43,665 nt of DNA from Candidatus Poribacteria bacterium (GTDB taxonomy: Bacteria > Poribacteria > WGA-4E > WGA-3G): assembly GCA_022827885.1 (NCBI GenBank), contig JAJEIP010000025.1, forward strand, positions 1-43,665, in the 5' to 3' direction. The position numbers were made by a program, and so were the translations under genes. Each line of letters starts with the position of its first letter. Position 1 is the first letter of the stretch. Of this stretch, positions 37,684 through 42,895 are shown piece after piece. Under the pieces are notes generated by a model. The model was not told the DNA's origin, made no database searches, and worked only from the letters and a program-made list of their open reading frames with translations.

Positions 37684-38127
37684 TTATGTGCCCTTCTTGT
37701 GCGATGGGCAAACCTCATGGTTGGGGTCCCACCAAAGTAAATAGGCTTTTCCTTCCATTTGAATTGCCCAAAGTCGCTGCCTACCGGTTAGTCGAAATGA
37801 AACTAATTCTTCTTGGTCATCATGTCCTAATTCTTCTAGCCTTTTTTGTGCGTCCCTTATAATTTTGCTTACCTGTATTTTATGGTTCTTGTGGTGGTCT
37901 CGTCCTAATATTTCACTCCACTTCTTCTTTTCAAAATCGCGCATCTTTTCCCATATCTCCTGAAAGAAATAAGAACAATTGACTTGATTCCAACCCCATT
38001 GACCATCACTATCAACCTTTGAAACATTCCAGACGAGTTCCCCGCTATCGGCTGGCACCACAGAAGAAGATTTGGGTTTCTTTGTTTTCTTAGGATTACG
38101 TTGTCGTCTAGGTTTCCCCTTACTCAT
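37684..38127 (-). CDS. probable toxin of the Panacea toxin-antitoxin operon
   Basis: A 147-residue protein, with an alternative start at 38136 adding three residues. The first 25 residues are Lys/Arg-rich and probably disordered. Then follow WGWNQVNCSYFFQEIWEKMR, FEKKKWSEILG, ISKIIRDAQKRLEELGHDDQ, SFRLTGRQRLWAIQMEGKAY and LLWWDPNHEVCPSHKKG. The last part (Arg-x-Trp-x-Ile, then WWDPxHEVCPS) is a sequence pattern seen in many short uncharacterised proteins; I do not know a named family for it. It is the last gene, overlapping the Panacea gene by 8 bases, which is the usual toxin position beside a Panacea antitoxin. The toxic role is inferred from context. Confidence 0.65.
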   Translation of the reverse strand: MSKGKPRRQRNPKKTKKPKSSSVVPADSGELVWNVSKVDSDGQWGWNQVNCSYFFQEIWEKMRDFEKKKWSEILGRDHHKNHKIQVSKIIRDAQKRLEELGHDDQEELVSFRLTGRQRLWAIQMEGKAYLLWWDPNHEVCPSHKKGT

Positions 38128-38842
38128 CTTCAACATCTTCCTCAGCTGGTAGCGAACTATAATAATCCGCCATCGTGTCTAAAGATATAACCCTATTACC
38201 CCGTGCTAGTGGGAGTAAGCCTTTTCTCGCTTGGATCCAAGGATCTTCCATGTGGGTAAGTTCAATTAGCCATTGGGCAGATTTATTTCCATAATATTCA
38301 AGCACGGCATCCACTGTTTCCTGCTGTGCCGGATTTAATAAACGAGGGTTGCCAATTGGCATCGCCGATATTTCATACATTCCACGATGGTAATCAAATA
38401 ATTCTCTTACGACGGGACCATTTGCCCAAGCCTCAATATTTTCCTCAAATAGAGGATTTTCATCCCACACCAATGACCATGCTTGACTATAGTATACCAG
38501 TTTTTGGAGTTTCATTGTAGTCATTGATTCCATCTTCTGTAGAATATAGGCTGCAACATCAAAGACTCGAATTTTCGGTGTTTCTGGATCCAGTTCCTGT
38601 AATTTCTCCCAAGTTAGGTATTCTTCCAACTCAGGAAAATTAAGGTCTGCATCAAACTCTGAATCTAACAATTCTTCAAAGTCAAGGTCTATATCAAACT
38701 CAGAATCAAATGACTCTTCAAAGTTGGTGTCTTCATCAAACTCTGAGTTGAAGGTGTTTATGGTTTTTTCATAATCCACTGTGTCTTCGGAAAAAGTGAC
38801 TTCCTCTTCAGGGATTTCACTTGTGTCGCGCCATTTCCTCAT
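38120..38842 (-). CDS. Panacea (DUF4065) domain antitoxin with acidic tandem repeats
   Basis: A 240-residue protein. Residues 93-230 form a DUF4065/Panacea domain, as in SocA and PanA antitoxins: FDVAAYILQKMESMTTMKLQ, KLVYYSQAWSLVWDENPLFE, IEAWANGPVVRELFDYHRG and WLIELTHMEDPWIQAR. The first part is highly acidic and contains three exact 14-residue repeats at 30-43, 44-57 and 58-71 around the core SEFDxDxxF(E/P)E (DNA repeat span 38630-38755). Panacea domains neutralise varied toxins through direct contact. The repeats may extend the toxin-binding surface or mimic nucleic acid; that is speculation. It overlaps both neighbours (4 and 8 bases), so it is the middle gene of an operon. Confidence 0.85.
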   Translation of the reverse strand: MRKWRDTSEIPEEEVTFSEDTVDYEKTINTFNSEFDEDTNFEESFDSEFDIDLDFEELLDSEFDADLNFPELEEYLTWEKLQELDPETPKIRVFDVAAYILQKMESMTTMKLQKLVYYSQAWSLVWDENPLFEENIEAWANGPVVRELFDYHRGMYEISAMPIGNPRLLNPAQQETVDAVLEYYGNKSAQWLIELTHMEDPWIQARKGLLPLARGNRVISLDTMADYYSSLPAEEDVEDE

Positions 38843-39492
38843 GCGATATCTCCTTTCATCTCTAAATTATAGACTTCAGCGATAAATTCTATTGCTTCTT
38901 GTTTTAATTCGAGGATTGAAGTTTCCGAAATTCCTGCCTTAAACGCAATTAAATCGGGGATCTTAAAATCGAAGTTAAACTTAAAGGTGCCTTTCCCTTC
39001 CTCAAGTCCAATAGCGAAATTAAGGGGGTGCTCATTTAATTCCAAACGACGAGTATATTCTTCACTGATCAATGATGCACCAAACTGTTTAATTTCTTCT
39101 AAATCTTTTGGACGTATGAGATTTCTTAAATCTTCACTGACATTATCTTGAGTAAAAAGAAAGTTAACACCGTATCCAGAAACAGGAGTATGCGGAAGAT
39201 AATCAGCAAGTTGCAGGGCCAAGTCTTGTATTCGATCTAAGTTCTCATCTTCGTTTTTTACTGGAATAAAATTTAGTTTGTTCCCTTGCAATAAAATTCT
39301 AACTTCCTTGGATGATATACGTGGAGAAACAAGTTGTGGGTTAAAACCTTGCGGAAACTGAGCTTGTATGTCTACTGTTAACTGCTCATCCGCTGCCGGA
39401 AAAAGATATCTTTTAATCCAGTTCGGATTAAATATGTGACCATTCCAACCACCTACAATAACTAGCCCACTAGAGGATTGGTCTAATTTCAT
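38839..39492 (-). CDS. unknown first gene of the Panacea operon
   Basis: A 217-residue protein starting at ATG 39492, with AGGAAG five bases upstream; a GTG at 39498 is less likely. It begins MKLDQSSSGLVIVGGWNGHI, then FNPNWIKRYLFPAADEQLTV. Middle and C-terminal parts have VSGYGVNFLFTQDNVSEDLR, RRLELNEHPLNFAIGLEEGK and FNFDFKIPDLIAFKAG. It looks soluble, alpha/beta, with no signal peptide, and has a faint resemblance to TIGR04255-type proteins that I cannot confirm. It ends in a 4-base overlap (ATGA) with the Panacea gene, so the three genes are translated together. It might be a third component (sensor, chaperone or inhibitor). Confidence 0.75.
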   Translation of the reverse strand: MKLDQSSSGLVIVGGWNGHIFNPNWIKRYLFPAADEQLTVDIQAQFPQGFNPQLVSPRISSKEVRILLQGNKLNFIPVKNEDENLDRIQDLALQLADYLPHTPVSGYGVNFLFTQDNVSEDLRNLIRPKDLEEIKQFGASLISEEYTRRLELNEHPLNFAIGLEEGKGTFKFNFDFKIPDLIAFKAGISETSILELKQEAIEFIAEVYNLEMKGDIA

Positions 39493-39527
39493 AAGCACTT
39501 CCTTTCAAAGGCTTGGATCGTTTGCAC

Positions 39528-39571
39528 AAACGCTCGACTTAGTACCTATTCAACGCTGAAGTCGAGCGTTT
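39528..39571. promoter_or_regulatory. 13-bp inverted repeat upstream of the Panacea operon
   Basis: AAACGCTCGACTT (39528-39540) and AAGTCGAGCGTTT (39559-39571) are perfect inverted copies separated by 18 bases, about 35 bases upstream of the operon's first ATG. The position suits an operator for the toxin-antitoxin operon, a terminator hairpin lacking a T-run, or another dispersed repeat. Confidence 0.6.
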
Positions 39572-39722: not shown

Positions 39723-40025
39723 TCAATATAACGATCTCAAACGATCCTGACGTTCCTCCCAATCTGGAAGATACGCAGACATGAAACTCTTGAACAACTT
39801 ACCGTGATTCGGGACAAGTAGATGCACCAATTCATGAACAATCACGTATTCCGTCAACGCCTCCGGCAAATTGAGTAGGTCGGTGTTGAGTGTCAATCGT
39901 CCTTTCATTGATATAGATGCCCATTTCCGCTCCATCTGACGGAGATGAATCTCCCGCACCTTCACACCGATACGGTCTGCCCACTGCACTACTGTCCCTT
40001 TCAAATCCTCTCTACTGGCGTTCAT
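39723..40025 (-). CDS. short YgjP/SprT-like metallopeptidase
   Basis: A 100-residue protein with a zinc peptidase motif HELVHL (His64, Glu65, His68) and a third ligand candidate His74 in PNHGKLF. It matches the C-terminal half of YgjP-like (DUF45) peptidases, which are normally about 230 residues: VREIHLRQMERKWASISMKG, LTLNTDLLNLPEALTEYVIV and ending YLPDWEERQDRL. Only the catalytic half is present, with its own start codon. Its ATG overlaps the hsdR stop by 4 bases. Such peptidase genes are often found at type I restriction loci; the reason is unknown. Confidence 0.85.
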   Translation of the reverse strand: MNASREDLKGTVVQWADRIGVKVREIHLRQMERKWASISMKGRLTLNTDLLNLPEALTEYVIVHELVHLLVPNHGKLFKSFMSAYLPDWEERQDRLRSLY

Positions 40026-42895
40026 ACGCGCTCCAACCGCAATAATTTATTTGTTGTTTCAATGAGTTCTTTTGTGCCAACGGTAGGTCTTAATGTTTTA
40101 TAGAGCATTGCCCTCAACTCTTTTTCTTCTTGCTCATTCCACTGATAATCAGAAAATTGTGCGAACACTTGATCAACGGCTCGCGCCTGCTCTGGGTTAA
40201 CATCTTCTATAACATTTCTGAGAACCGTATAGACTGCAAAGGTGTTCTCATCCATGTTGAGGCGTTCGCTTTCTCTCGCGGCAAGCGCACATTCCTCCAC
40301 TAATCTCCTAAACTCAGCCAATACATCTTGGGTCGCCATCTGGTGATTTCCGTAGGTTTCTGTAATTGCTTCTGCACGGTCACCAATCGAAAGTAGGAAA
40401 GGCTTTGATTTGCCTTCGGTTGTTACCGTCTGATATAATGCCTTCTGTAAATTCAGCACCTTGACCGTATCGGAGGCATCGCTCTGATCTATTTTCTCCA
40501 AAGTGTCCGCGTCCAATTCATAAACGGCATCCGGCAATTCAAACAAATCACTCTCCGTCCGCTCTTTCAACAACTCTCGCGTCTTGGCGGTCAACTCCTT
40601 ATCAACATAGGTCCGATTGGCATAAGCGTTACGAATCAGTCCATAAAGGATTGTCAACGCCTGATAATCCGCGATGAATTCGCGTAAGAAGGCATCCGGT
40701 GAAAGAATGTCATAGAGGTTTTGCAACCCTTTGAAGAACTTGAAGAAAGCCTCTCGGTCGTCTTTGTCCTCAAAATGTTCAATCGCCCGCTGCTTTGCCT
40801 TATCATCCCAACCAGTGGTAAGAGGTAAATACACCGCTGCGTCTTCACGCATGCGCTTGGCGAAAGTTTCTTTGAGAACGTCAATATTGCGAATTACGCT
40901 CGCCACTTCGTCGGAATCAAACGCTAACGCCTTTTCAAGGTTCTCAAAGATGCCGACAAAATCTAAGACGAAGCCTGCGGGTTTCACCAATCCATCTTCG
41001 TCTTCGTAGGGTCGATTGACACGGGCGATTGCTTGTAATAGCACATGATCACGCATCGGTTTGTCGAGATACATGCAGTAGAGGATCGGGGCATCAAAGC
41101 CTGTCAATAACTTCTGGGTTACAATCAGAATCTTCGGCTGTTCATTCTTGTCAATGAATTTTTTGCGGATGTCTTTTTCCTCGTCTGAGGCGCGGTGATA
41201 CGTTTTCATAAATGCAGCGTCTTGATTGTTTTCAGAATAGACGACTTCTGAATACTCCGGTGGTAGATATTTATCCAATGCCTGTTTATACAAGGCACAC
41301 GCCTCGCGGTCAACAGCCACCAGAAACGCCTTGAAACCCATCGGCTCTACAGTCTCACGGAAGTGTTCCGCGACATATTTCGCAATGCCGTCTATCCTCT
41401 CCGGTGCTTTCATCATTGCCTTGAGTTGAACAGCGTTGTCAAGGATTGCGTTGAGTTCCTCCAGATCACTCATTCCCTCCGTCATCACGAGGTTTAAAAA
41501 TTCCCGTTCCAACGTCTCGCGGTCAACCCGTAGTTCAGAGGCGGCAAGGCCATAATTCAACGACACAGTGGTGCCGTCTTCAATGGATTCCACGATTGCG
41601 TATTTATCCAAATATCCCTGCTCGTCATCCACACCGAACACCTTAAACGTTCCTTCACCTTTGGAAAGCCTGTCGATCGGGGTACCGGTAAAACCGATAT
41701 AGGTCGCATTGGGAAGGGCGGCCATCAAATAATTCCCAAAATCGCCACCGGTGGTGCGGTGTGCTTCGTCAATCAACACGACCACACTCTCGCGGGTGTT
41801 AAGGTTCGCCGGTCTCCTATCAAACTTATGAATCATTGACACGACCAAACCGCGGTAATCGGAGGATAGAATTTCTTCCAGATCGTCCTTGCTCTGTGCA
41901 ACCTCAAGCGTTGTGATACCGTAACCCGTGATGTTTCTGAAGAGTTGGCTCTCCAATTCGTTGCGGTCAACGACCATCAGCACGGTGGGTTTTTCTGCTT
42001 GCTGCTTGCCGCGTAGGAGACGGGCAGCGATGGTTATCATCGTGAGGGTTTTACCGCTGCCCTGCGTATGCCAGACAAGCCCGCGTAGTTTGTTCGGGTC
42101 GTGGACCCGTTCAATGACTTTCTCCACTGCACGCGTCTGGTGTTGACGCAACATGATTTTGGTGAGTTGGTCGTCTTTGCTCTGGAAGATGATAGATTGC
42201 TGTAATACTTTGAGGATGCGATTGCGGTCGAAAAAGGTTTTGACCTTCTGTTCATAGTTGGTGGGTTCATCTGTTTTCCAGCTAAACAGGTTTTTGCGGC
42301 TGGTGTTCCACGTCACGCCGTAGAAGAAGTCAAGGAGTTGTGTGACCCCAAAAAGTTGTGCAGTGGTAAACATCTCTGGTGTTTCGTTATGGTAACGACG
42401 AATTTGTTCAACACCAAGTTCTAATCCATCCGGTTTGCCAGCATTCTTTGCCTCCACGATTACCACAGGAATCCCATTAATCAGGAACACCACATCGGCG
42501 CGATTGCGATATGCTGCGTTTTGTTGTTCCCATTCATCGGTAACATGGAAGAGATTATTATCCGGATTTTCAAAGTCGATTAGGGTGACGTTGCGGTTGC
42601 GGTTTTCATTTGCAACAAAAGTTGATCTTTCACCGCGCATCCATGAAAGTGCCTCTTGATTTCCTTCAAGTGTCCCATTGAGCAAACCAAGTTGTCGGAT
42701 AACGTCCGCGCAATTGGAATCGTCTACAACTTCATTGTTGAGTTTCAAGAGTTGCGCCTTCAGCACATCGGTGAGATAACACTCGGTGGCATTACCGCCA
42801 CGCATGCGCATGGCTTCCGATGGCGAAATGGACTGCCAGCCGATTTCATCGGCGTATTTGAGCATCGGTTCTTGGACTGCGGAACGTTCAGACAT
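40022..42895 (-). CDS. hsdR: type I restriction enzyme, HsdR subunit
   Basis: A 957-residue protein with the full R-subunit plan. The nuclease domain has NRADVVFLINGIPVVIVEAK, giving Asp134, Glu148 and Lys150 as the PD-(D/E)xK site. The translocase motor has HTQGSGKTLTMITIA (Walker A), VVDRNELESQLF, VVLIDEAHRTTGGDFGNYL and GFTGTPI, then LIVTQKLLTGFDAPILYCMY and VLLQAIARVNRPY in the second lobe. The C-terminal helical region contacts the methylase. R subunits translocate and cut foreign DNA only with HsdM and HsdS. Neither lies in the window: the upstream gene is unrelated and the downstream one is a peptidase. No frameshift is seen, so it is either served from beyond the window or orphan. Confidence 0.95.
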   Translation of the reverse strand: MSERSAVQEPMLKYADEIGWQSISPSEAMRMRGGNATECYLTDVLKAQLLKLNNEVVDDSNCADVIRQLGLLNGTLEGNQEALSWMRGERSTFVANENRNRNVTLIDFENPDNNLFHVTDEWEQQNAAYRNRADVVFLINGIPVVIVEAKNAGKPDGLELGVEQIRRYHNETPEMFTTAQLFGVTQLLDFFYGVTWNTSRKNLFSWKTDEPTNYEQKVKTFFDRNRILKVLQQSIIFQSKDDQLTKIMLRQHQTRAVEKVIERVHDPNKLRGLVWHTQGSGKTLTMITIAARLLRGKQQAEKPTVLMVVDRNELESQLFRNITGYGITTLEVAQSKDDLEEILSSDYRGLVVSMIHKFDRRPANLNTRESVVVLIDEAHRTTGGDFGNYLMAALPNATYIGFTGTPIDRLSKGEGTFKVFGVDDEQGYLDKYAIVESIEDGTTVSLNYGLAASELRVDRETLEREFLNLVMTEGMSDLEELNAILDNAVQLKAMMKAPERIDGIAKYVAEHFRETVEPMGFKAFLVAVDREACALYKQALDKYLPPEYSEVVYSENNQDAAFMKTYHRASDEEKDIRKKFIDKNEQPKILIVTQKLLTGFDAPILYCMYLDKPMRDHVLLQAIARVNRPYEDEDGLVKPAGFVLDFVGIFENLEKALAFDSDEVASVIRNIDVLKETFAKRMREDAAVYLPLTTGWDDKAKQRAIEHFEDKDDREAFFKFFKGLQNLYDILSPDAFLREFIADYQALTILYGLIRNAYANRTYVDKELTAKTRELLKERTESDLFELPDAVYELDADTLEKIDQSDASDTVKVLNLQKALYQTVTTEGKSKPFLLSIGDRAEAITETYGNHQMATQDVLAEFRRLVEECALAARESERLNMDENTFAVYTVLRNVIEDVNPEQARAVDQVFAQFSDYQWNEQEEKELRAMLYKTLRPTVGTKELIETTNKLLRLERV

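Follow-up and report, generated by a model that had tools for sequence, protein, structure and literature searches.

The window analysed here, the 43,665 nucleotides of contig JAJEIP010000025.1 from a Candidatus Poribacteria bacterium (assembly GCA_022827885.1), carries a trio of overlapping genes, all on the minus strand, that spans positions 37684-39492. The genes and their associated features, from upstream to downstream, are as follows.

39528-39540 and 39559-39571: perfect 13-bp inverted repeat with an 18-nt loop, 36 nt upstream of gene 1.
39493-39508, minus strand: conserved leader TTGAAAGG(C/A)A(T/G)TGCTT, with an RBS-like GAAAGG and the ribosome-binding region TTGAAAGGCATTGCTT, from 13 aligned upstream regions.
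38839-39492, minus strand: gene 1, ATG at 39492, 217 aa, unassigned to any family; predicted tandem beta-rich fold, proposed antitoxin chaperone or adaptor.
38120-38842, minus strand: gene 2, putative Panacea-domain antitoxin (PF13274), 240 aa.
38567-38842, minus strand: N-terminal extension of the Panacea protein, 92 residues, acidic and low-complexity; proposed chaperone-addiction region.
38622-38747, minus strand: tandem repeats in the extension, three 14-residue (42-nt) units, DSEFDxDxxFxEL-like, from a repeat search.
37684-38136, minus strand: gene 3, predicted toxin, 150 aa, or 147 aa from the second ATG (38127).

Gene 1 and the Panacea gene overlap by 4 bases (ATGA). The overlap between the Panacea gene and gene 3 is 17 bases from the first ATG of gene 3 (38136) and 8 bases from the second (38127), which is the better placed, behind GAGGA. 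The overlapping arrangement described in the first-pass annotation is thus borne out, the 8-base overlap holding if gene 3 starts at 38127, and its identification of the second gene as Panacea is confirmed by a PF13274 match of 64.6 bits (cut-off 25.7; E 2e-17). Pairwise dN/dS values are low for gene 1 (0.12-0.36), Panacea (0.11-0.18) and the toxin gene (0.10-0.31), implying purifying selection on all three genes.

Gene 1 is present in 19 of 85 Poribacteria genomes by protein search and 21 by profile, and the order gene 1-Panacea-gene 3 is kept at all 16 close Poribacteria loci (this locus and L003-L017). A scan of bacterial genomes placed the trio also in one Desulfobacteraceae, one Cloacimonadota and three Prevotellaceae/Bacteroidales records. 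The copies of this last group lie among phage-like genes (amidase-like and tape-measure-like, as read by eye); a Dehalococcoidia contig carries gene 1 and Panacea and then ends. Of the genomes sampled from the phyla of the Desulfobacteraceae and Prevotellaceae records, 13 of 297 and 4 of 395, respectively, carried gene 1, and no plasmid copy was found in PLSDB. With the order conserved at 16 of 16 loci and purifying selection acting on the genes, the case for gene 1 as a third component is now stronger than when it was first proposed. The proposal was to be refuted if most homologous loci lacked gene 1; within Poribacteria they do not, but among viral and other contigs they usually do.

Some copies are damaged. 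Gene 1 is frameshifted in L015 and L017, and Panacea in L008; in L017 the toxin is intact although gene 1 is frameshifted. In L015 the toxin (L015:428-874) carries a glycine at position W135, which is invariant elsewhere, and this substitution, together with the frameshifted gene 1, looks as if the module there were decaying. Between L013 and L014 the synonymous divergence of gene 1 is 0.11, about five times lower than the 0.56 of its neighbours (Panacea and toxin), which suggests recombination within the module.

Just upstream of the trio lie hsdR (TIGR00348) and a gene for a YgjP-like metallopeptidase, which had given the region the look of a defence island. Both do adjoin the trio here, but the hsdR-ygjP pair accompanies it in several genomes of the same genus and not in others, amounting to about half of trio loci. 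This patchy linkage makes the 'defence island' lineage-specific and places hsdR and ygjP outside the module. The two genes (39723-42895) overlap by 4 bases close to the contig end; neither hsdM nor hsdS is among the open reading frames listed beside hsdR, and N6-methyltransferase genes are present on other contigs.

Gene 3 has no Pfam family. It matches PHROG 8366 (7.5e-8), which carries no functional annotation, and scores 16.9 bits against the NCBIfam model NF046006 (MAG6450), under the curated 40-bit cut-off; 28 of 29 gene 3 relatives match the same model (best 1.6e-7), for which no function was found either. The earlier view of a toxin from no known family therefore holds in so far as the family is unnamed, but the protein is related to PHROG 8366 and MAG6450 and is not unique to this genome. 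Throughout this analysis the family was found beside Panacea genes only. An AlphaFold2 model of gene 3 (pLDDT 83.5) finds most of its best solved-structure matches among the RelE/ParE (BECR-fold) toxins (PMC11980606), mostly HigB, YoeB, RelE and HigB2 in the Foldseek comparison with the PDB, but the matches are weak (all E >= 0.18) and no RelE-superfamily Pfam model matched any of 29 gene 3 members at E <= 3. The model thus lends weak support to a RelE/HigB-like fold. Five residues, W36, R121, W135, D137 and H140, are invariant in the family and compatible with a RelE-type active site and putative mRNA cleavage; we take R121 and H140 to resemble residues of YoeB.

An extension precedes the Panacea domain. 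At this locus it contains 33 acidic (D+E) and 7 basic (K+R) residues, and 68% of its residues are disorder-promoting (60-77% across the set). The 14-residue repeat is represented by about one unit in most aligned orthologues. The extension evolves faster than the Panacea domain (dN/dS 0.21-0.53, compared with 0.07-0.15), and on alignment its sequence differs between phyla, with no conservation. Its presence follows that of gene 1: it measures 62-111 aa at 20 of 20 scored loci with gene 1 adjacent, whereas just 2-6 aa precede the domain at 15 of the 16 scored loci that lack gene 1, a length that in some of the latter depends on the start codon chosen. L046, which is without gene 1, possibly has 25 residues ahead of the domain. 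At eight loci (L085, L087, L091, L092, L134, L138, L146 and L148; L092 lies outside the scored set and was read by eye) there is no in-frame start for a longer Panacea protein. One locus, L064, has the extension but not gene 1, and its toxin gene is broken; the extension thus occurs only with gene 1, bar this single decayed exception. Most trios group together in a tree of the Panacea domain, so that the association may rest on one to three evolutionary events only; a Fisher value calculated without regard to this shared descent is not to be read as a probability.

Panacea-toxin pairs also occur by themselves. Searches with the toxin profile found such pairs, with no gene 1 nearby, in one phage record and a number of viral contigs, and in viral and other contigs the pair is usually without gene 1; L082 could not be scored because its contig ends, and L094 carries only a fragment. 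Within Poribacteria, L063 is an intact pair of the same toxin family without gene 1; the remaining Panacea genes without gene 1 have RelE/ParE-like (as read by eye) or other partners. In L134, L146, L147 and L149, Panacea is paired directly with RelE/ParE-like toxins, with neither gene 1 nor an extension.

Divergent relatives of gene 1 precede at least four other types of gene pair, which we name after their proteins or motifs (HEPN, metallo-beta-lactamase, 'QSCDL' and 'DWEG'). The loci are the following.

L018-L020, L115, L124: 'DWEG' and 'LYRR' proteins behind a gene 1 relative.
L039-L041, L113, L123: short low-complexity protein and 'QGDIL...QSCDL' protein.
L116-L120, L122, L169-L171: middle protein and metallo-beta-lactamase-fold protein (PF00753, 6e-10 for L118).
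L074, L075, L121: middle protein and HEPN protein (PF05168, 1.1e-7 for L121).
L081: a phage-contig type downstream of a gene 1 relative.

Gene 1 copies also turn up in prophages and in viral contigs. On a tree built from 36 gene 1 proteins the partner type must change seven times, and although some of its branches are long and its details unsure, well-supported branches force at least three changes for 'DWEG' alone; partners have been swapped. Of 297 sampled genomes, 6 carried the gene for the middle protein of the metallo-beta-lactamase pair, and all 6 had gene 1 as well.

Several of these modules deserve description in their own right. The metallo-beta-lactamase three-gene module (L116-L120, L122, L169-L171) recurs in two phyla and we found no description of it; its middle protein, of ~200 aa, has a low-complexity N-terminus and the motif 'LQKWEGxV...FYWSIGY'. 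The 'QGDIL...LTQSCDLV' proteins, of ~290-400 aa, have no significant Pfam match (L039:4877-5776, L040:4874-5764, L041:4941-6152 and L078:4919-5791); they follow gene 1 and are preceded by a short low-complexity protein in three of these four loci. The 'QSCDL' effector is found in L078 and also in L114. For 'DWEG' pairs, no relatives were found on plasmids, and most copies that are without gene 1 have another first gene, so that this pair offers no clean contrast for the extension. In L160, L162, L163 and L166 a first gene of ~250 aa, 'KAPIVEAVIEIR...FSRLQPY', which we take to be TIGR04255-like, precedes a 'DWEG' and 'LYRR'-like pair, and in L159 and L161 another family, of ~240 aa, comes first. 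Unrelated first genes may thus fill the same slot before the 'DWEG' pair.

Gene 1 itself has no match in Pfam, NCBIfam, PADLOC or PHROGs, and a PDB sequence search with the gene 1 and toxin profiles returned nothing significant. Its AlphaFold2 model (pLDDT 89) comprises two beta-alpha-beta-beta-beta(-beta)-alpha halves, for which a fold search of the PDB gave nothing at E 1e-3 or better; among viral models (BFVD) an unnamed protein of 202 aa matches best (E 9e-7, TM 0.64). Homology to SecB was considered and rejected, and homology to the TATA-binding protein (TBP) and to the TIGR04255-like first genes received no support from sequence profiles. The hhalign probabilities were 0.4% for SecB, 0.1% against four archaeal TBPs and 0.9% for the TIGR04255-like proteins, in comparisons that are not very sensitive because each profile held four or five sequences; neither SecB nor TBP is among the 50 best Foldseek/PDB matches, and a Pfam scan of gene 1 and 25 relatives for SecB found none.

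How does this module relate to those already described? PanAT systems (PMC8832971, PMC10440598) likewise have a Panacea protein overlapping a small downstream partner, exchange their toxins and occur in prophages. The adjacent small partner, conserved in two or more species, that characterises PanAT is found here too, gene 3 homologues lying beside Panacea in 16 Poribacteria genomes, in several other phyla and in viral contigs, and on sequence grounds we class the module as PanAT-type, with a putatively toxic partner. Two features set it apart. A third gene occupies the first position at all close loci here, whereas published accessory genes are rare, each third gene occurring in a small fraction of genomes (PMC8832971), and, in step with gene 1, the Panacea protein bears a long low-complexity stretch at its N-terminus. 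A literature search outside supplementary tables, whose lists of accessory clusters may include gene 1, found no Panacea module with a dedicated chaperone.

There is also a parallel in logic with the toxin-antitoxin-chaperone (TAC) systems of M. tuberculosis (PMC5105189) and CmdTAC (PMC11618068). In TAC a SecB-like chaperone binds a chaperone-addiction sequence that chaperone-independent antitoxins lack (PMC5105189), and in CmdTAC the chaperone is displaced by a phage capsid protein (PMC11618068). As in TAC, the operon here has three genes, with the third conserved at 16 of 16 close loci; one helper family is paired with several toxin-antitoxin types, and an extra terminal region of the antitoxin is present only where the helper is. 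We consider it roughly an even chance (about 0.5) that the three genes make up a tripartite toxin-antitoxin module with TAC-like logic, in which a third component other than SecB holds the antitoxin through its extension. Counting against this reading are the reversed order (the helper gene is first here and last in TAC), an extension that is N-terminal rather than C-terminal and differs in sequence from phylum to phylum, the possibly small number of evolutionary events behind the association, the intact toxin of L017, and the lack of sequence relationship between SecB and the putative chaperone. Since gene 1 shows no similarity to SecB, the module would work like TAC without being a member of it.

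We infer binding, stabilisation, toxicity, ribonuclease activity and phage triggering as follows. Gene 3 would be the toxin, most likely a RelE/HigB-like ribonuclease that blocks translation, and the Panacea protein its direct antitoxin. Gene 1 would supply a dedicated chaperone or adaptor: bound to the low-complexity stretch ahead of the Panacea domain, it would keep the antitoxin folded and shielded from proteases. Were gene 1 lost, or titrated by a phage protein for instance, the antitoxin would be destabilised by its extension and the toxin would be freed. Relatives of gene 1 would play the same part for several unrelated effector pairs. Given its recurrence before at least five such pairs, in several phyla and in some prophages, gene 1 probably serves toxin modules in general, as a helper or a sensor protein. 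The wider proposal that gene 1 is the first member of a new superfamily of tandem-fold helper proteins distinct from SecB, acting as interchangeable sensor-chaperones, tethered through the low-complexity region of the middle protein and serving at least five effector modules (the Panacea/MAG6450-like toxin, HEPN, metallo-beta-lactamase, 'QSCDL' and 'DWEG' pairs), is more tentative, and we would put it somewhat short of even odds.

Gene 1 might instead be an infection sensor that keeps the effector complex inactive and shifts its own state upon contact with a phage product, with no role as a folding chaperone. Coupling of one family to effectors as unrelated as HEPN and metallo-beta-lactamase proteins is what an interchangeable sensor would give, and its copies in prophages and viral contigs fit as well. 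By itself, however, sensing leaves the restriction of the Panacea extension to gene 1 loci unexplained, and the idea overlaps with the chaperone model in that TAC chaperones are themselves sensors (PMC11618068); as a separate explanation we regard it as unlikely.

We find it equally doubtful that gene 1 is a transcriptional autoregulator, a TBP-like tandem fold bound to operator DNA with the extension as a co-repressor contact. No DNA-binding domain is recognisable in the Panacea protein, which leaves gene 1 as a possible operator-binding component; the strand-helix order of its model is compatible with a tandem TBP fold, and a viral TBP appears further down the BFVD matches, albeit weakly (probability 0.96, TM 0.35). 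Against this, gene 1 showed no support for TBP in the profile and PDB comparisons described above. The inverted repeat upstream of gene 1, the other feature in favour, is indeed there as first reported and is unlikely to be due to chance, being the sole short-loop 13-mer hairpin in the window (0.05 expected in shuffles) and occurring once in the genome, but it is not conserved upstream of the orthologues, so that a role as a conserved operator is improbable and was rejected. What the orthologues have in common is the ribosome-binding leader directly 5' of gene 1.

In a further alternative, gene 1 hitchhikes upstream of what is otherwise a standard Panacea toxin-antitoxin pair of two genes. The pairs that lack gene 1, in viral contigs and in a single Poribacteria genome, and the rarity of third genes in the published survey (PMC8832971) might suggest this, but it is very improbable given that gene 1 stands in front at 16 of 16 close loci and in several other phyla, with short overlaps and purifying selection, and accompanies unrelated pairs as well.

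Finally, if the tripartite TAC-like reading is correct, gene 1 and the extended middle gene would together provide a sequence handle for finding new effector systems, and the extended Panacea proteins with gene 1, set against the bare ones without it, offer a natural contrast for dependence on gene 1. To our knowledge, TAC systems have so far been tied to SecB-like chaperones. Another helper family, unrelated to these but filling the same role, would show chaperone addiction to be a general design of bacterial toxin modules.
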